From contig JAJQIF010000011.1 of NCBI GenBank assembly GCA_021199355.1, forward strand, positions 1 through 64,000: 64,000 nucleotides of DNA. The letters are read 5' to 3'. The stretch comes from Oscillospiraceae bacterium. GTDB lineage: Bacteria > Bacillota > Clostridia > Oscillospirales > Ruminococcaceae. Below the pieces are notes generated by a model, which did not search any database, had not been told where the DNA came from, and saw nothing but the letters and a program-made list of their open reading frames with translations. Positions 16,680-26,372 of this stretch are shown in pieces; position 1 is the first letter of the stretch; each line of letters starts with the position of its first letter. The position numbers were made by a program, and so were the translations under genes.

Positions 16680-16869
16680 GAAACAATCGTGAAGGTAGGG
16701 GCACCCTCCTCTCACGGAGTCAACACTTTTTGTGGCTGATTTCAGTGATTGAAAAGGATGAAACCGCCTCACACGGGAAACAGCTCGCATGAAAATGCGA
16801 ATTTCCAAAGCACGCATCGGGCGTTGTGCTAAAAACGCCTGCGCGAAATTTATTGGAGGTAAATCTAAC

Positions 16870-19131
16870 ATGAAAAGACTACTTGCTATGATCTTAGCTG
16901 TTGCAATGGTTCTTTCCTGCTTCTCCGCTTGCGGCGACACTGCTACTAATGACAGTTCCACCACCAATTCGGCTGACAGCACCGGCGATTCCACTGCTAC
17001 AGACGACACAGCTACAGAGAATCCTACCGAGCCGGTAGATCCCTATGCTGACTATGAGATCTGGGTCGAGAACGAAGATGGAACCACTTCCATCGACTTC
17101 GAGCAGTACACTGCACTTTCTGCAGCTATCTACTCCGACGTTCTTGGCGAATACTACGATTACTATCAGGCAGCTTCCGAGGCTGAGACCGTTTCTGAAA
17201 AGTACGCTCTCTATGCTATCGCTGAGGCTAAGCTCCTTGAAGAGTGCGTATTCGTTTCCACTACTTACAACGGTGGCGGACAGGCTATGAGCCGCGTTAT
17301 GGTTCGTTCCGGCGACTATGCTCTTTGGGGCTCTGACTCCGACAGAATGCACAACTACGTTGTTACCAACGAGATCATCTCTGTTGCTGACAGAACCTAC
17401 CTCAAGGAACTCTGGGAAGAGCTCAAGGGCACAGGCACCTACCTCGAGACTGCTAAGGCTTATCTCACCGAGCAGGGCTACACCTTCGACGATGAGTATG
17501 TAAACAGCTACACCGGTGATGCCGAGACCTTCGACGTTCTCGCTACTTCACAGGCTACCGACTCTGAGAAGGTTATCCAGTGCTACGACGGACTCGTTGA
17601 GTACGATTCTGAAGGCGTTCTTCAGCCGGCACTCGCTGAGAGCTGGGAAGTTTCCGAAGACGGTCTTACCTGGACCTTCCACATCCGTGAAGGTGTTACA
17701 TGGGTTGACTCTCAGGGCAGATATGTAGCAGACGTTACTGCTGACGACTGGGTTGCAGCTATGCAGCACATGCTCGATGCAGCCGGCGGACTTGAGTACC
17801 TCGTTGACGGCGAAGTCGGTATGGCTATCGTTGGCGCTTACGAGTATCTCTCCGGCGAAATCACCGACTTCTCTGAGGTTGGCGTTAAGGCTGTTGACAC
17901 CTACACCCTTCAGTACACCCTCGTAGAGCCTTGCTCTTACTTCGAGACTATGCTCGGCTACTCCTGCTTCGCTCCTATGAGCAGAAGCTACTATGAGTCC
18001 CAGGGCGGTAAGTTCGGCGCTGATTATGATCCTTCTGCTTCCGACTACTACTATGGAACTACTTTCGAGAACATCGCTTACTGCGGTCCGTACATCATCA
18101 CTCAGTACACCAACGAGAACACCATCAAGTGGGAGTACAACGAGTCCTACTGGAATCCTGACAATGTTCAGATCCACTCTATCACTTGGCTCTACAACGA
18201 TGGTTCCGACGTTACCAAGCAGTACAATGACTTCATCTCCGGTTTGGTTGACTCTGTAAGTATCTCCACTTCAATCGCTGCTATCGCAGAGGCTGATGGA
18301 TACTCCACCGACAACTACATCTACCGTGCTGACCTCGGTACTACTTCTTACCTCGCATTCTACAACATCTACAGAACCTGCTTCGCTAACTTCAACGACA
18401 GCACCGTTCTCGTATCCGGTCTTTCCGAAGAAGAGGCTACAAGAACCAACGTCGCAATGCTCAACACTCACTTCAGAAGAGCTATCACTTATGCTGTAGA
18501 CAGAATTTCCTACAACGCTCAGTTCTACGGCGAGGATATCGCTGCAGTTCGTGTATCCAACTCTTACGTTCCCGGTGACTTCGTTGTCCTCGAGGAAGAA
18601 GTAACTGTTGACATTAACGGCACTGCTACCACCTTCCCGGCTGGCACCTACTACGGTGAAATCCGTCAGGCTCAGCTCGATGCTGATGGCGTAGCTATCA
18701 AGTCTTGGGATCCCGAGACCAACTCTTCCGCAGGTTACGATGGATACTACAACGTTGACAACGCTGTTGCTGAACTCGAAATCGCTATCGAAGAGCTCGC
18801 TGCTCAGGGCGTAGTTATCGACGAGGATAATCCTATCCACATCGAATTCGTTACCACCGGTGCTGTTGAGACTTATGTAAACGGCGCTAACGCTTGGAAG
18901 CAGTCTGTTGAGTCCGCACTCGGCGGAAAGGTCGTCATCGACATCGTCGCTGCTGACGCTACCTCCGATTGGTACTATGCTTGCTACTACTTCAGCTATG
19001 GTTACGAAGCTAACTTCAACATCAACACCTTGTCCGGTTGGGGTCCTGACTACGGCGATCCTTCCACTTATCTCGGAACCTTCCTCGACAGCTACTCCGG
19101 CTACATGGTCAAGAGCATCGGTATCTATTAA
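16870..19131 (+). CDS. Oligopeptide-binding lipoprotein (SBP family 5), apparently circularly permuted
   Basis: 753 residues from the ATG after GGAGGT. Lipobox FSAC (C21) and a Ser/Thr/Asp-rich linker (22-60) anchor it outside. From about residue 210 it reads as the beginning of an OppA-type protein (SYTGDAETFDVLATSQATDS, PALAESWEVSEDGLTWTFHI, then NTHFRRAITYAVDR). It stops abruptly after GWGPDYGDPSTYLGTF, where relatives continue for 100-150 residues. Residues about 75-205 look like that missing end: YYDYYQAASEAETVSEKYAL, IAEAKLLEECVF, AMSRVMVRSG. The order is therefore C-part then N-part. Codons ending in T/C (GCT, GTT) suggest high expression. It is first of five importer genes. Confidence 0.85.
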   Translation: MKRLLAMILAVAMVLSCFSACGDTATNDSSTTNSADSTGDSTATDDTATENPTEPVDPYADYEIWVENEDGTTSIDFEQYTALSAAIYSDVLGEYYDYYQAASEAETVSEKYALYAIAEAKLLEECVFVSTTYNGGGQAMSRVMVRSGDYALWGSDSDRMHNYVVTNEIISVADRTYLKELWEELKGTGTYLETAKAYLTEQGYTFDDEYVNSYTGDAETFDVLATSQATDSEKVIQCYDGLVEYDSEGVLQPALAESWEVSEDGLTWTFHIREGVTWVDSQGRYVADVTADDWVAAMQHMLDAAGGLEYLVDGEVGMAIVGAYEYLSGEITDFSEVGVKAVDTYTLQYTLVEPCSYFETMLGYSCFAPMSRSYYESQGGKFGADYDPSASDYYYGTTFENIAYCGPYIITQYTNENTIKWEYNESYWNPDNVQIHSITWLYNDGSDVTKQYNDFISGLVDSVSISTSIAAIAEADGYSTDNYIYRADLGTTSYLAFYNIYRTCFANFNDSTVLVSGLSEEEATRTNVAMLNTHFRRAITYAVDRISYNAQFYGEDIAAVRVSNSYVPGDFVVLEEEVTVDINGTATTFPAGTYYGEIRQAQLDADGVAIKSWDPETNSSAGYDGYYNVDNAVAELEIAIEELAAQGVVIDEDNPIHIEFVTTGAVETYVNGANAWKQSVESALGGKVVIDIVAADATSDWYYACYYFSYGYEANFNINTLSGWGPDYGDPSTYLGTFLDSYSGYMVKSIGIY

Positions 19132-19201
19132 TTTAGAACCTGCTCCGAATCAGATCAATTTAATCTGAATAGCAAAGCTTTAAATCTTAATCAGAGTATC
19201 T

Positions 19202-19229
19202 GCCCCCAAGAGTCAAGGCTTTTGGGGGC
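19202..19229 (+). other. Stem-loop after the binding-protein gene
   Basis: GCCCCCAA / TTGGGGGC stem without a T run, in the 254-bp gap before the permease genes. It probably protects or partly ends the abundant binding-protein mRNA, so the downstream genes are made at lower level. Confidence 0.6.
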
Positions 19230-19385
19230 TCTCTGATAAAGAATCTTTTAGGGCTTTAAAGAGGAATCAACATTTTCTTGGAATCCGACGACTTAAGGGT
19301 CGGATTTCCGCAGGAGAACCTAACGACTAAAAACAACAATGGGGAATGGCGGCGGTTGTTTCCCGCGTAAGGAACGGTGGACAAA

Positions 19386-20957
19386 GTGGCAAAATATCTA
19401 GTAAAAAGAATACTAACGGGTTTGCTCTCTATCATTGCAGTCATAGCAATCGTCATGGTCCTGATATATTCCCTTATGGACAGGACGCTGATATTCGCAC
19501 AGGACACTGTTTACTCGAAACAGAGCAACAATAACAAAACCATCTACCAGTATCAGAAGTGGGAGGAGTATGGCTACCTTGACTATGTAACCTACAACGA
19601 CTATCTCAACGAACTGGTGGCAAACGGCGAGATTGATGAGGACACCAAGTCTACAGTCACTTCAATCGCCAGAAAATCGGAAAACGACTCGGAAGAAGTC
19701 GCGGAATATGTTCAGAAGTTCACTGAATACTATCAGAGTCAGGGCTATACTGTTATAAGGTTGGACGCTGTTATGATGACCGACACCAAGGTTGCGACCG
19801 GTGGTAACCAACAGCTCTTTGCTTATAAGAATATACCCGTCATCTCCCGACTCTGGACGTATCTTACAAGCATTTTGACATTCGACAACATCAACGCAGT
19901 TACCGACGACGTCGGAGAGCGTGGACTCACCTTTACATGGTACGACCCTGTTTACGGCGGAGACACCTTCTCGCCCGCAATCATCGGCAACGGCACAACA
20001 CATAAGTACCTATTATACTTTGACAACGAGTTCCCGTTTATCCATCAGAACTTTGTGACGATAAACCTGGGAGTTTCATACACAGTCAATCAGGGTATTG
20101 ATATCACCAATACCATGTCAGACAAACAAGGTAGCTACTCAAAGAGAGAGGTTACATACCCGACGGGCTTGACGGAACAGAGCGCCGATAATCTTCACAC
20201 GGCGAAGTATGTTTCGGGAAGCCTTGAGAGTAATATCGTCTACTCGGAGAGATATACCGACAACTACACCAATACGACCACCTACAAGACAGGACGTTCG
20301 AGAATCGGTTATTCGTTCATAATCGGTATCCTTTCGACGATTATGGCTTATGTCCTCGGTATTCCTCTCGGAATCCTCATGGCACAGCACAAGGACGGAT
20401 TCCTTGACAAGCTCGGAACTCTTTACATCATCTTCATGATTGCGGTTCCTTCGCTTGCATATATCTTCCTGTTCAAGGCAATAGGCGGAAACCTCGGGTT
20501 CCCGACGACGTTCATTATCGACACGGAAGTCCCGGCGATGTACATCCTGCCTATCGTTTCACTGGCTTTGCCTTCGGTTGCAAGCCTGATGAAGTGGTTG
20601 CGTAGATACATGATCGACCAGATGAATTCCGACTACGTCAAGTTTGCACGCGCAGGCGGTCTTTCGGAAGGCGAAATCTTCAGAAACCACATCTTAAAGA
20701 ATGCGGTTATCCCGATTGTACACGGTATTCCCGGAAGCATCCTTGGAGCTCTTACAGGCGCCATCATCACCGAGCGTGTATACTCGGTTCCCGGTACCGG
20801 TAACCTCCTCACGAGAGCTATCAACGCTTACGATAACTCGGTTATCGTCGGTGTAACGCTCTTCTATGCAGTGCTGTCCGTTGTCTCGCTTATCGCCGGC
20901 GACCTTCTTATGAGCGCTGTCGACCCGAGAATCAACTTTACTTCGAAAGCGCGGTGA
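19386..20957 (+). CDS. Oligopeptide ABC permease (OppB/AmiC-like) with a large external domain
   Basis: 523 residues from GTG at 19386, placed 11 bases after AAGGAA; a GTG nine bases earlier is too close to it. The start MAKYLVKRILTGLLSIIAVI is typical of OppB. After the first membrane helix comes an external region of about 220 residues (about 45-270), then five helices with the BPD_transp_1 core and coupling motif FARAGGLSEGEIFRNHILKN. Plain OppB proteins have about 310 residues; AmiC of streptococci has a comparable external insert. The external domain may contact the unusual binding protein. Six bases separate it from the next gene. Confidence 0.9.
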   Translation: MAKYLVKRILTGLLSIIAVIAIVMVLIYSLMDRTLIFAQDTVYSKQSNNNKTIYQYQKWEEYGYLDYVTYNDYLNELVANGEIDEDTKSTVTSIARKSENDSEEVAEYVQKFTEYYQSQGYTVIRLDAVMMTDTKVATGGNQQLFAYKNIPVISRLWTYLTSILTFDNINAVTDDVGERGLTFTWYDPVYGGDTFSPAIIGNGTTHKYLLYFDNEFPFIHQNFVTINLGVSYTVNQGIDITNTMSDKQGSYSKREVTYPTGLTEQSADNLHTAKYVSGSLESNIVYSERYTDNYTNTTTYKTGRSRIGYSFIIGILSTIMAYVLGIPLGILMAQHKDGFLDKLGTLYIIFMIAVPSLAYIFLFKAIGGNLGFPTTFIIDTEVPAMYILPIVSLALPSVASLMKWLRRYMIDQMNSDYVKFARAGGLSEGEIFRNHILKNAVIPIVHGIPGSILGALTGAIITERVYSVPGTGNLLTRAINAYDNSVIVGVTLFYAVLSVVSLIAGDLLMSAVDPRINFTSKAR

Positions 20958-20963
20958 TAGAAT

Positions 20964-21938
20964 ATGACAACAGCTGAAATATCTGAAAAGTACGGTCTTT
21001 CAAAGGAAGAGCTCTTCGCACACGTTGAGAACGATGCAGAAGAGGCAGAAAGAATAACCGCTCCGCGTTATTCCTACTGGCACTCGGTCTTCCGCGTATT
21101 CTTCCGCAAGAAGATTAATATCGTAATCCTCGCACTCCTCGCATTCATCGTCATATTTACATATGTCTATCCGGCGGTCACCAATTACGACAAGTTTGCA
21201 AACATCATGGATGCAAGTGCGAAGCACCTTACTCCTGCCGCCGCAATGGAGAAGTTCGGCTACAATATCCACTGGATATTCGGTGCCGGCGCTTCAGGTC
21301 AGTCGACCTTTGACGCTATCTGGTATGGTGCAAGAATCTCTGTATCGCTCGCATTCATCTGCGCCGCAATCAACATGGTTATCGGTGTAGTCTTGGGTGC
21401 TGTCTGGGGCTTCTCGAAGAGAGTTGACTCCATCATGATTCCGATTTACAACATCGTCGGAAACATCCCTTATGTACTCCTCATCTCCGTACTCGTAATG
21501 CTCTTTACCGCTTCGTTCTGGACGATGGTATTCGCCCTGACGATAACGGGCTGGATCGGAATAGCCTACTTCATTCGAACGCAGGTTGTAATCATACGAG
21601 ACCGAGAATATAACCTCGCATCAAAGTGTCTTGGAACGTCCACCTTCAAGATAGCTATAAAGAACATCCTGCCGTTCATGACCTCCGTCATCGTTACTCA
21701 GGCGGCTACCGAAATTCCTTCCTACATAGGCTACGAAGTATTCCTTGCCTACATCGGAATGGGTCTTTCGGACATGTCTCTCGGTCGTATGATTTACGAC
21801 GCCGAGTCCGCAATGGTAACTCCCGGCTGGCAGTTCGAGTTCTGGTGCCCGGTTGCTGTAGTCTCCATCATCACAATCGTTCTTTACGTTGTCGGTCAGA
21901 ACTTAGGCGATGCTACCGACCCGAGAACACATATGTAA
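20964..21938 (+). CDS. Oligopeptide ABC permease (OppC/AmiD-like)
   Basis: 324 residues: a cytoplasmic N-terminus of about 45 residues, a first helix (about 53-72), an external loop with FGAGASGQSTFDAIWYGARIS (the usual OppC ...G.D..G rDvfsR/wGaR region), then the BPD_transp_1 core. The coupling loop is LASKCLGTSTFKIAIKNILP. It forms the channel with the OppB-like subunit and ends 15 bp before the first ATPase gene. Confidence 0.93.
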   Translation: MTTAEISEKYGLSKEELFAHVENDAEEAERITAPRYSYWHSVFRVFFRKKINIVILALLAFIVIFTYVYPAVTNYDKFANIMDASAKHLTPAAAMEKFGYNIHWIFGAGASGQSTFDAIWYGARISVSLAFICAAINMVIGVVLGAVWGFSKRVDSIMIPIYNIVGNIPYVLLISVLVMLFTASFWTMVFALTITGWIGIAYFIRTQVVIIRDREYNLASKCLGTSTFKIAIKNILPFMTSVIVTQAATEIPSYIGYEVFLAYIGMGLSDMSLGRMIYDAESAMVTPGWQFEFWCPVAVVSIITIVLYVVGQNLGDATDPRTHM

Positions 21939-21953: not shown

Positions 21954-23708
21954 ATGGAAAATAATGAGAAAAAAGTGTTGCTCTCCGCTAAGGATGTGCA
22001 TCTCCAGTTCAAGGTAAGAGGACGTGTCCTCACAGCCATCCGTGGCATTTCCCTCGATATTTACGAAGAGGAATCCATCGCAATAGTCGGTGAGTCCGGC
22101 TCCGGTAAGTCCGTTTTCACAAAGTGCTTCACCGGTATGAACGACCAGAACGGCTACATCAGCGGCGGCGAAATCATCTATAACGATCCCGAGCTTGCGG
22201 ACACTCACGTTGCCCTCTCAAGCAACATCAAGAGAATCGAAGCAAGCGCAAAGAAGAAGCTTGACGAATATTCAAAGCTCGAATTGGGAGCTGAAACCTA
22301 TAAGGAAATCCTTAATCTCGAATCCGAGAAGAAGGAGCGCGAGGGCTTGAGCTCGGATGAGCTCGGAGAGGAGAAGGCAAAGGAGTCTGACCTTATTGCG
22401 GACAGAACCGACGCCTATAACCTCAAGCTCACGCTCGACTCAAAGAAGGACAAGGCTCAGATCAAGGAGCTGAACGCGAAGATTGACGAGTACGACGCAG
22501 AGCTCAAATCCTTGAGAGCAAAGGCGAAGTCCATCGAGGCTGAGCACAAGAAGGCTCTCAAAGCCGACACTGCTTATCTTGCCACCTATAACGAGAAGAT
22601 GGCGGCTCTGAAGTCGAAGTATCAGCAGGAAATTTCCGGCGAAATCTCCGACGAAACGAGAGAGCGCAACACCGTTCTTGCAAAGGAAATCTGCCTTTCA
22701 ATCGGCAGATACGACATGAAGGACCGCTATTCGCTTCTGAATAAGCTCCTCAAAGCCCTTAAGAAGGCTATGAAGCTCGGCGTTGACCTTGACGATGACA
22801 AGCAGAGAAACTCTGTTTTCGATACCGTTGCGTTCAGAGTTCAGTACCTCGACGAGACCGAGGAAGCTCTTCATGGCACCTGCGTTTTGAACCTTGCAAA
22901 TGTCAAGTTCGATAAGGACTGGGCACAGATTCGCGGTAAGAGAATCGCGACCGTCTTCCAGGACCCGATGACTTCTCTTAATCCGATTATAACAATCGGC
23001 AAGCAGATTACTTCAATCATCATCAAGCATCAGGGATGCAGTGAGGTTGAGGCAAGAAGAAAGGCTCTCGACCTTATGCACAAGGTCGGTATTCCGAACC
23101 CCGAGAAGAGATTCGACGATTATCCCTTCCAGTATTCAGGCGGCATGAGACAGAGAATCGTTATTGCGATTGCCCTCTCCTGCCAACCGAAGATTCTTAT
23201 CTGCGACGAGCCGACAACCGCTCTTGACGTTACGATTCAGGCTCAGATTCTGAAGCTACTCAAGGACCTCCAGAAGGAGTTCCACTACACGATAGTGTTC
23301 ATCACCCATGACCTCGGTGTTGTTGCAAACATTGCTGACAGAGTCGCAGTGCTCTATGCCGGACAGATTATTGAGCTCGGCACCGTCGAAGAGGTATTCT
23401 ATGACCCGAAGCACCCCTACACTTGGGCACTGTTGTCGTCGCTTCCTCAGCTCACACAGAGAAATACAAAGCTCTATTCAATCACCGGTACGCCTCCGTC
23501 GCTTTATAACGAGGTTGTCGGAGATGCGTTTGCGCCGAGAAATCCCTATTGCCTTAAGATAGACACCCTTGAGGAGCCGCCGATGTTCAAGGTCAGCGAC
23601 ACTCACTATGCAAAGACGTGGCTTCTTGATCCCGATGCGCCGAAGGTTGAAAAGCCTGAAGCTATCGACGATATTCACGGTAAGCTCATCAGAGCGTTCA
23701 ACATATAA
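21954..23708 (+). CDS. Oligopeptide ABC ATPase (OppD/AmiE-like) with a coiled-coil insertion
   Basis: 584 residues, against about 330-350 for usual OppD. Walker A GESGSGKS is at 46-53. The chain then departs from the family after GGEIIYND (71-78) and returns near WAQIRGKRIATVFQDPMTSL (about 323). The Q-loop is at 334-338, signature YSGGMRQR at 394-401, Walker B ILICDEP at 414-420 and a C-terminal peptide-importer tail follows. The roughly 235-residue insertion is Lys/Glu/Leu/Ala-rich and helical (ELNAKIDEYDAELKSLRAKA), suggesting an antiparallel coiled coil. ATPase motifs look intact. The role of the insertion is unknown; it sits between Walker A and the Q-loop. Confidence 0.92.
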   Translation: MENNEKKVLLSAKDVHLQFKVRGRVLTAIRGISLDIYEEESIAIVGESGSGKSVFTKCFTGMNDQNGYISGGEIIYNDPELADTHVALSSNIKRIEASAKKKLDEYSKLELGAETYKEILNLESEKKEREGLSSDELGEEKAKESDLIADRTDAYNLKLTLDSKKDKAQIKELNAKIDEYDAELKSLRAKAKSIEAEHKKALKADTAYLATYNEKMAALKSKYQQEISGEISDETRERNTVLAKEICLSIGRYDMKDRYSLLNKLLKALKKAMKLGVDLDDDKQRNSVFDTVAFRVQYLDETEEALHGTCVLNLANVKFDKDWAQIRGKRIATVFQDPMTSLNPIITIGKQITSIIIKHQGCSEVEARRKALDLMHKVGIPNPEKRFDDYPFQYSGGMRQRIVIAIALSCQPKILICDEPTTALDVTIQAQILKLLKDLQKEFHYTIVFITHDLGVVANIADRVAVLYAGQIIELGTVEEVFYDPKHPYTWALLSSLPQLTQRNTKLYSITGTPPSLYNEVVGDAFAPRNPYCLKIDTLEEPPMFKVSDTHYAKTWLLDPDAPKVEKPEAIDDIHGKLIRAFNI

Positions 23709-23720
23709 GGGGGTTTTGAC

Positions 23721-25031
23721 GTGGCAAAAGAAAACAAAAAGACTGCAACGCAGTCGCATTTCCCGGAGCATGGTCCTGTAGACGAAAACGGCAGAGAAAT
23801 ACTTCTCCAGCTCAAGAACGTCGATATCACCTTCGGCAAGGGCGACAGCGCCGTAAAAGCTGTCAAGAACGCAAGCTTCGACATCTACAAGGGCGAGACT
23901 TTCTCGCTCGTAGGTGAGTCGGGCTCAGGTAAAACAACAATCGGTCGTGCCGTTATCAGAGTAAATCCCTGTGCGGCAGGCGAAATCCTCTATAAGGGCG
24001 TCAGAATTTCAGGAAAGATTCCGCATTCTTTGGACCGTGAGGTCATAAGAAATATCCAGATGGTATTCCAGGATCCGGCGGCATCTCTTAACGAGCGTGC
24101 AACGGTTGACTATATCGTATCCGAAGGACTTTACAACTTCCACCTCTACGAAGACGAGGCGGACAGAGTCCGTAAGGTCGAGGACATCATCAAGGAAGTA
24201 GGACTTCTCCCGGAGCATCTGACAAGATATCCGCACGAGTTTTCCGGCGGTCAGAGACAGAGAATCGGCTTGGCAAGAGCGATGGTTATGAAGCCTGAGC
24301 TGGTTGTCGCCGACGAGCCTATCTCGGCTCTCGACGTCTCCATCAGAGCACAGGTTCTGAACCTCATGAAGAAGTTCCAGGAGGAAGACGGTGTAACATA
24401 CCTCTTCATCGCCCACGACCTTTCAATCGTAAGATTCATTTCCGACAGAATCGGTGTTATCTACAAGGGCGACATCGTTGAGATTGCTGATGCGGAGGAG
24501 CTCTTTAACTATCCGCTTCACCCGTATACTCACTCGCTCATTTCGGCTATCCCGATTCCCGACCCGAAGCTTGAGAAGAACAAGGTGCTCTATACCTACG
24601 ACCCGTCTATCCATGACTACAGCGAGGACAAGCCGGTGCTTACAGACATCGGTCACAACCACTTTGTCTATGGCAACAAGAAGGAAATCGAGGAGTATAA
24701 GGCACTCAGAGAAAAGAACGAGATTATCAAGTCGGTCACCATCCTTGAAGAGGGCGAGACCTATGAGCCCACCGTCGAAGAGATCGACGCAACCGAGAAG
24801 GCTGCCGAGGAGCAGTTCCTCAACGCGCCTATCCACGACACCGGCTCGAAGTGGTATGCAGTTCTTTCCTTCCTGCTTCCTATCTTAGGAATCATCTTGG
24901 GACAGATATTCAAGGCAAGAAGGCACTTCCGCAACTGGAAGATGTGCCGCAAGGGCGCCATTGCAGGATTTGTGGTAATCGGAATTATCATTGTTCTGTT
25001 CCTGCTGATGCTTCTGCTGGCTGTAATCTGA
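23721..25031 (+). CDS. Oligopeptide ABC ATPase (OppF/AmiF-like) with a C-terminal membrane tail
   Basis: 436 residues, about 100 more than usual OppF. Walker [10 protein letters not shown] (about 65), [15 protein letters not shown], signature FSGGQRQR, Walker [14 protein letters not shown] and an H-loop in IAHDLS form a complete ATPase. The family tail [18 protein letters not shown] is present near residue 275. After it comes an acidic helical linker and then two hydrophobic segments (about 377-395 [20 protein letters not shown] and 408-434), resembling small DUF4190-like membrane modules. A membrane tail on a cytoplasmic importer ATPase is unusual. A strong terminator follows the gene. Confidence 0.92.
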
Positions 25032-25124: not shown

Positions 25125-26372
25125 ATGAAATCTACAAGGTCACGAATTCATACAAGTAACGCGAGCCCTAAACCGGTCGAGAACGTCGAGATTTCGTCCT
25201 CGCATGTCGGTCTACGGATTGTCGCGGTTGTCCTTTTGGTGCTGATTGCGGCGACGGCGTTTGGCTATGCCATCAACGGGCTTTTTTCCGGCACGGACGG
25301 TTGGCAGCAGATTGAGGCGGACGTCGATGACCTGAGCGTCGCGACCGAGCTTACGTTCATGTACGACATCGGTGCCGGTTCGGAATCCGCGACCACCGAG
25401 CGCAAGGCGATAGTCGTCATCTATTCGGACGCCTGCGAAACGGCTTATCAGCTCTTCACGCCCGATACGGAATATGAATATGTCTTCAACGTCTGGTATA
25501 TAAACAACCACCCGAACGAGGAAATAGTGGTCGACGAGGTGCTCTATTCGGCTCTTGAAACGATGGTCGAATCGGGCGGACGTGAGATTTATCTCGGACC
25601 GATTTATGCGGAATACGAGAGCCTTTGCTTCTCGGCTGAAGACTGGCAGGCGGAGGAATTCGACCCTCTTTATAACGACGTCGAGGCGGAGTATTTCGCC
25701 GAAGTTCTCGGGTTTGTCGGTACGGATGAGCATGTATCTCTGGAGCTTCTTCAGGACAACACGGTTATATTGCACGTTTCGGACGAGTATCTTGAGTATG
25801 CCGAGGAAATGGAAATCAACAGCTTCATCGACTTTTCGTGGATGACGAATGCGTTTGTTGTCGACTATATTTCGGATGTGATGATTGAAAACGGCTATAC
25901 AGCCGGAATAATCGGCTCCAATGACGGCTTCACCCGAAACCTTGGCGGTTGCGACGAGCTGTTTTCCTATACTCTCTATTCAAGGGAGGGCGACACCGTT
26001 TACTCTGTCGCTGACTTGATTTATGAGGGAACGATGAGCTTTGTTTATGCTCATGACTATGCAATCACCTCGGACGACGCAATGCACTACTACACCTATG
26101 AGAACGGTGAGGAAAGAAACCCCTATATCGACGCCGCCGACGGTCTCTGCAAAGCCGCAACGGAGGACCTGGTGCTCTATTCCGATTCGGCGACCTGCGC
26201 CGACCTGCTGCTCGGGCTTGTAGACACCTATATCGCCGACACCCTCGACGAATCAAAGCTCGAAGCCCTTGCAAATGACGGAATCCACTCGGTCTATTAC
26301 GACGGCTTCACGATTGTCTGCACCGATGACGATATTGTGCTGTCTGATGTGGAGGAGGGGTTTGGAGCTTAA
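25125..26372 (+). CDS. Membrane-anchored protein with a degenerate ApbE-like domain
   Basis: 415 residues: a cytoplasmic tail, one membrane helix (about 29-52) and an acidic external domain. The external part follows the order of ApbE (FAD:protein FMN transferase). YEYVFNVWYINNHPNEE and ALETMVESGG stand for the iN...S.Gafd region, INSFIDFSWMTNAFVVDYIS for iDLGgiaKGyavD, and RNPYIDAADG with SDSATCADLLLG for the HiiDPxTG...aDal region. Key residues (KG lysine, catalytic and metal Asp/His) appear replaced, so flavin transfer is doubtful. The match is by eye and weak. It is followed after one base by a CotH gene, probably co-expressed. Confidence 0.5.
   Translation: MKSTRSRIHTSNASPKPVENVEISSSHVGLRIVAVVLLVLIAATAFGYAINGLFSGTDGWQQIEADVDDLSVATELTFMYDIGAGSESATTERKAIVVIYSDACETAYQLFTPDTEYEYVFNVWYINNHPNEEIVVDEVLYSALETMVESGGREIYLGPIYAEYESLCFSAEDWQAEEFDPLYNDVEAEYFAEVLGFVGTDEHVSLELLQDNTVILHVSDEYLEYAEEMEINSFIDFSWMTNAFVVDYISDVMIENGYTAGIIGSNDGFTRNLGGCDELFSYTLYSREGDTVYSVADLIYEGTMSFVYAHDYAITSDDAMHYYTYENGEERNPYIDAADGLCKAATEDLVLYSDSATCADLLLGLVDTYIADTLDESKLEALANDGIHSVYYDGFTIVCTDDDIVLSDVEEGFGA

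Follow-up and report, generated by a model that had tools for sequence, protein, structure and literature searches.

The 64,000-nucleotide stretch analysed here (hereafter the window: positions 1 to 64,000 of contig JAJQIF010000011.1, assembly GCA_021199355.1, Oscillospiraceae bacterium) carries at 16870..19131 on the forward strand a gene for a 753-residue protein, which we conclude with high confidence to be a natural circularly permuted Ami-type oligopeptide-binding lipoprotein of substrate-binding protein (SBP) family 5, cluster C. Judged by sequence, the last ~110 residues of the canonical proteins, equivalent to approximately 537–646 of Streptococcus pneumoniae AmiA, stand in front, and the equivalent of AmiA ~33–533 follows and then stops. 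The first-pass annotation of this gene had located the open reading frame (ORF) and its motifs correctly, and its reading as a circular permutation is supported by the swapped-order tiling of two modules on canonical profiles and by the grouping of 62 permuted sequences in a single clade.

Membership of family 5 is evident from SBP_bac_5 (PF00496), which matches residues 251–742 over profile positions 2–364 of 368 (163.3 bits, curated cut-off 32.4). When the single sequence was compared with the PDB by phmmer, residues 209–752 matched AmiA, AliB, AliC and AliD (E 1.8e-75, for AmiA, to 6.4e-63), the first match outside the Ami group following at 2e-22. This core, residues 210–753 (17497..19128, +), as delimited by Pfam, phmmer and profiles, corresponds to the old N-terminal and middle part. 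The three alignments shown by phmmer contain a second stretch in permuted order, in which residues 93–184 align with AmiA chain positions 525–620 (weak, i-E 0.81) and the same residues or part of them with AliB (i-E 3.6) and AliC (i-E 7.4), always to the chain C-terminus.

The front module (residues 76–187; 17095..17430, +) was delimited by profile searches. A profile built from 41 such modules (alignment A3, residues 76–209) and searched against all PDB chains retrieved four distinct sequences at E of 0.001 or below, namely AliC (1.1e-13), AmiA (2e-11), AliD (1.4e-9) and AliB (1.6e-9), all of them C-terminally, at positions 502–630 of chains 626–638 residues long; the next match, DppE at E 0.09, likewise lay near the C-terminus (451–490 of 521). 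The closest solved relatives of both parts of the chain are Ami-type proteins, and the likeness of the N-terminal part to the C-terminal end of family 5, as originally noted, is borne out over a homologous span of approximately residues 84–187. Profile-profile comparison against an 8-member canonical profile placed the front module (43 rows, of which the program used 41) on columns 522–619 of 626 (E 3.9e-13) and the core on columns 44–512 (E 4e-101); against 36 canonical sequences the corresponding columns were 490–589 of 603 (E 3.8e-18) and 10–481 (E 3e-115). The two modules tile the canonical profile once, without overlap and in swapped order, the chain stopping where its relatives continue, as the annotation had it. 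Nor does the rest of the protein hold a complete C-terminal lobe of its own: profile-profile comparison found no counterpart of the front module inside the permuted core (E 0.15), and 57 of 57 examinable permuted ORFs end near the motif WGPDY. A rotation scan agrees, weakly, since the best single alignment rose from 337 bits in native order (canonical 34–509) to 349 bits with the cut placed after residue 191 (35–617), with whole-sequence scores nearly unchanged.

A binding protein that lost its tail and acquired an unrelated N-terminal domain, resembling that tail by chance, would fit the absence of any match to a binding-protein family in Pfam or NCBIfam for the first 195 mature residues, and of any SBP match in Foldseek. 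The comparison of the N-terminal part with SBP_bac_5, which had been suggested as a check, is also negative because the Pfam model ends before that segment; taken on its own, this check would have led to a wrong rejection of the permutation. The profiles, however, place the module at the single expected position with E values of 1.6e-9 to 3.8e-18, the best of 50 column-shuffled controls reaching 0.033, and the same module occupies the other end of the chain in 49 canonical ORFs. These profile results refute a chance resemblance, which we consider extremely improbable. The 49 ORFs come from a scan of ORFs of at least 150 residues in 154 loci with front-module and core profiles (module threshold E <1e-3), which gave 113 distinct module-bearing ORFs, 64 with the module before the core, 49 with the module after it, none with the module inside and none with two copies. 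The 64 include partial or repeat copies: L115 is the window's own gene truncated by a locus end, a frameshift or gap interrupts L050, and L112, L113, L114 and L116 are truncated by locus ends.

The ORF runs from an ATG at 16870 to a stop codon at 19129–19131 and is preceded by a ribosome-binding site, GGAGG, read directly from the sequence at 16855..16859 (+); an alternative start at 16789 would give 780 residues, the additional ones all upstream of the signal peptide. The latter (16870..16932, +) is predicted to be of the lipoprotein type, with a lipobox FSAC and Cys21 recognised by reading and by pattern, and lipobox-like cysteines occur in 59 of the 62 permuted ORFs with an intact 5′ edge, one of these 59 (L071) being spurious. 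A linker rich in Ser, Thr and Asp follows (residues 22–75; 16933..17094, +), with a predicted local distance difference test score (pLDDT) below 50 through residue 50 and block means of 78–89 from residue 51. Towards the end of the front module, a predicted helix at residues 172–185 (17383..17424, +) aligns with the stretch of the Ami proteins that forms alpha-19, a helix on lobe 1 described as the C-terminal hallmark of the Ami type in PMC11192437, on which all statements below about AliD and AmiA anatomy are based. The junction between the old C-terminus and the old N-terminus spans residues 188–209 (17431..17496, +), with a predicted helix at 191–201. Near the end of the core, W724 and D727 (19039..19050, +) occupy positions like those of AliD W498 and D501, which bind the peptide amino end (PMC11192437), and the protein has in this respect the Trp and Asp typical of the Ami type; neither residue varies in any of the 43 rows aligned. 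The canonical chain order, with the N-terminus in domain I of lobe 1, is absent, and the protein is thus classed as a permuted variant and not as an ordinary Ami-type member.

Structure mapping and a survey of C-termini place the new C-terminus (residues 741–753; 19090..19128, +) with Y753 opposite AmiA 533, to which the cut maps, in a loop reported to form the peptide pocket P2 (PMC11192437); with permutation disallowed, superposition of the AF2 model on 8a42 aligned 493 residues. The survey covered 57 permuted ORFs, seven of the 64 having been set aside (five truncated by locus ends, the broken L050, and L036, which has WMPDY and was missed by the WGPDY pattern). Counted from the W of WGPDY, 28–32 residues remain in all 57, and the last residue is aromatic in 53 (Y in 36, F in 14, W in 3, other residues in 4), most permuted rows ending in a motif GYMxKxIG[IL][YFW]. 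Two canonical Ami-type sisters, L074 and L126, carry the motif internally, as GYYxKAMGL, followed by the loop that is opened in the permuted proteins; where the latter stop, L074 has GYYMKAMGLEAG and L126 has GYYLKAMGLGEVG. With so conserved an ending, pocket P2 may well include the free C-terminus.

From the published anatomy of AliD and AmiA, the consequences of such a cut for chain topology may be sketched. In the permuted chain, the short junction would connect alpha-19, formerly the C-terminal helix of lobe 1, to the first strand of domain I, making lobe 1 one continuous chain, and lobe 2, which grips the peptide N-terminus, would be assembled from both chain ends with both lobe crossings retained. 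Since the cut maps to lobe 2 (PMC11192437), the two chain ends would be expected there together with the lipid anchor, and the lipidated N-terminus would exit beside pocket P2 through the flexible linker instead of from lobe 1. Compared with the usual arrangement on lobe 1, the anchor therefore probably sits on the other half of the clam shell, lobe 2. The earlier expectation of relocated termini and possibly changed anchoring or hinge motion is in this way refined, though not proved: the termini are assigned to a particular lobe, and the lobe crossings are expected to be unchanged.

The permuted version is shared by many related gut bacteria. Full-length relatives without inner stops were found in 17 of 30 genomes of the same genus, and none among the matches listed for the other 68 relatives in that genome sample. 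For broader samples, permuted-type genes were defined by a score of at least 144 bits, a match reaching model position 133–134 and an open frame of 730–789 residues; all other front-module matches in the order, class and phylum samples scored at most 76 bits and ended at model position 109–121 (109–112 in the order sample, where 11 permuted-type matches reach 133–134). Permuted-type genomes numbered 11 of 295 in the order sample, distributed over 7 families, 5 of 391 in the class sample and 2 of 398 in the phylum sample, these samples overlapping and each counting the window's genome. Carriers among the matches listed are named Ruminococcus, Oscillospiraceae, Lachnospiraceae, Roseburia, Acetatifactor, Clostridiaceae, Erysipelotrichaceae and Solobacterium. 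Nearly all of them are metagenome-assembled genomes, as might be expected of an assembly or annotation artefact, but the full-length relatives in the genus and in other families, together with purifying selection on the junction, speak against this. Ratios of non-synonymous to synonymous substitution rates (dN/dS) against seven close congeners were 0.24 for residues 76–186, 0.20 for the junction, 0.19 for the core and 0.59 for linker residues 22–60, and against two more distant congeners 0.32, 0.39, 0.30 and 0.53, respectively; by these estimates the gene is under purifying selection, junction included. An artefact is refuted by the independent assemblies, and we regard its probability as vanishingly small.

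A quick core-only tree, midpoint-rooted and without bootstrap, was computed from 62 permuted and 37 canonical rows, 98 of these 99 being distinct; L115, L050 and 12 canonical rows whose cores were short or weak were left out. A single branch separates all 62 permuted rows as one clade (Shimodaira–Hasegawa-like approximate likelihood ratio test, SH-aLRT, 98). Within it the distribution is patchy, and the presence of the window's genus in several sub-branches suggests exchange between lineages or repeated loss; one genome, G323, holds a permuted and a canonical Ami-type gene together. L074 and L126 may be close to the ancestral form, a point which the tree does not settle. The permuted gene would have arisen by duplication of an Ami-type gene followed by loss of the outer parts. 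At L077 (1998–5845) two canonical Ami-type genes lie in tandem, the arrangement expected ahead of a duplication-type permutation.

Alternatively, the front module could derive from a different Ami-type paralogue by gene shuffling, which would make the protein a chimera with permuted topology, and no single gene would then have been permuted in the strict sense. Canonical Ami-type genes do adjoin or multiply, as in the tandem pair at L077, a back-to-back pair at L076 and five copies in genome G1006, and the same possibility was raised by the authors of work on Treponema pallidum Tp0684 (PMC4990184). The nearest solved relatives of both modules, however, are Ami-type proteins, and after one old event the sequence hardly separates shuffling from permutation; topology and function would be identical either way. 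We consider shuffling rather unlikely, though clearly the most plausible of the alternatives, and retain permutation of a single Ami-type gene.

The gene stands at the head of an oligopeptide permease (oppBCDF) operon. The spacer between the binding-protein gene and oppB (19132..19376, +) is strongly structured as RNA (folding z −5.86 relative to shuffles) and contains a long GC-rich hairpin, possibly an attenuator lowering permease expression. It is followed on the same strand by oppB (19377..20957; 526 residues), the permease gene oppC (20964..21938) and the ATPase genes oppD (21954..23708; 584 residues) and oppF (23721..25031; 436 residues). OppB has an AmiC-like length, with a long insert ahead of its permease domain (328–519); it aligns over positions 4–524 of 526, insert included, with the OppB adjoining a canonical gene of Enterococcus asini (L072), and only at its ends with those of L075 to L078. 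The best named match of OppD is NCBIfam MMSYN1_0167, a 561-position OppD model, at 712 bits against a cut-off of 740. OppD also contains a long insert within its ATP-binding cassette (ABC) domain. The next gene (25125..26372, +) encodes a 415-residue operon-linked protein whose N-terminal region includes a hydrophobic stretch and which is perhaps distantly related to ApbE. In Pfam, up to E 10, it matched only EutQ, below cut-off (E 0.071), and gave no ApbE match itself; 7 of its 27 relatives matched ApbE, an FMN transferase, weakly (best E 2.4e-4), and it may on this ground be a degenerate ApbE tied to the importer. Of 43 permuted loci, 35 have its gene after oppF; of the other eight, seven reach a contig end first and L071 is without opp genes. 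The gene was seen in none of the four canonical loci whose opp genes are in view (L072, L075, L076 and L077), although the L076 contig may end too early.

Could the permuted protein have ceased to be a transport receptor and now serve as a peptide sensor or surface adhesin that has stayed with its operon? At L071 (7850–11965) a fusion places BspA-type leucine-rich repeats and SLH domains ahead of the permuted binding protein, and the locus showed no neighbouring opp gene; the L071 protein may be held by the S-layer rather than by lipid, and a chimeric assembly is possible. Against such a role, 42 of the 43 permuted loci in the genome collection have oppB after the permuted gene (split into two frames in L036), the ligand residues are invariant, and no second Ami-type binding protein turned up in the genome that encodes the 753-residue one; we regard a sensor or adhesin as very unlikely. 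The genome has one other SBP_bac_5 protein (L002), read as canonical in order, and its oligo_HPY matches are confined to the two ATPases of this operon. On the simplest reading, the operon would supply the genome with an oligopeptide importer of its own whose receptor is permuted and most likely binds oligopeptides between its lobes and hands them to its own permease.

The closest known oligopeptide-binding lipoproteins are AmiA, AliA, AliB, AliC and AliD of S. pneumoniae (PDB 8a42, 8qlj, 8qlh, 8qlc). Compared with these, the protein has the segment beyond AmiA 533 in front, is ~95 residues longer with an apparently longer linker, and would have its new termini in lobe 2 near pocket P2 and its anchor on the other lobe. 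The OppA/DppA proteins of cluster C (e.g. Salmonella OppA and Bacillus DppE) have canonical order and far lower similarity to it, and OppA lacks alpha-19 (PMC11192437). Among tethered substrate-binding proteins, Tp0684 (TpMglB-2), which has relatives in gut Gram-positives, is known to be naturally circularly permuted (PMC4990184). The Pfam and structural matches of the present protein are to family 5 and cluster C and not to the TpMglB-2-like (cluster Bc) fold, no direct comparison with Tp0684 having been made; Tp0684 has a cluster B sugar-binding (glucose) fold, a different cut point and a gained fourth lobe crossing. It was the only natural permuted binding protein noticed in our literature search of open-licence PMC papers, and no permuted family-5 or oligopeptide-binding protein turned up there.

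To our knowledge, permutations this large in big three-domain receptors are rare in nature. Because PF00496 stops before the displaced segment, such cases are hidden, and more may exist. Here the permutation is fixed in a clade across several families, canonical relatives are available, and both forms occur together in G323; it also concerns the apparently sole Opp-type importer of its genome. This amounts to a natural experiment on whether the position of the membrane tether affects binding-protein closure and docking on the ABC importer, a question that was raised and left open for Tp0684, whose authors also asked whether tethering had favoured permutation (PMC4990184). It is tempting to speculate, though we hold the idea only tentatively, that this clade of gut receptors is tethered through its peptide-recognising lobe 2, and that, with the P2 specificity loop opened by the cut, the receptor's own free C-terminus contributes to the pocket reading peptide residue 2. 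If so, one topological change would have rebuilt both anchoring and specificity while keeping the hinge.
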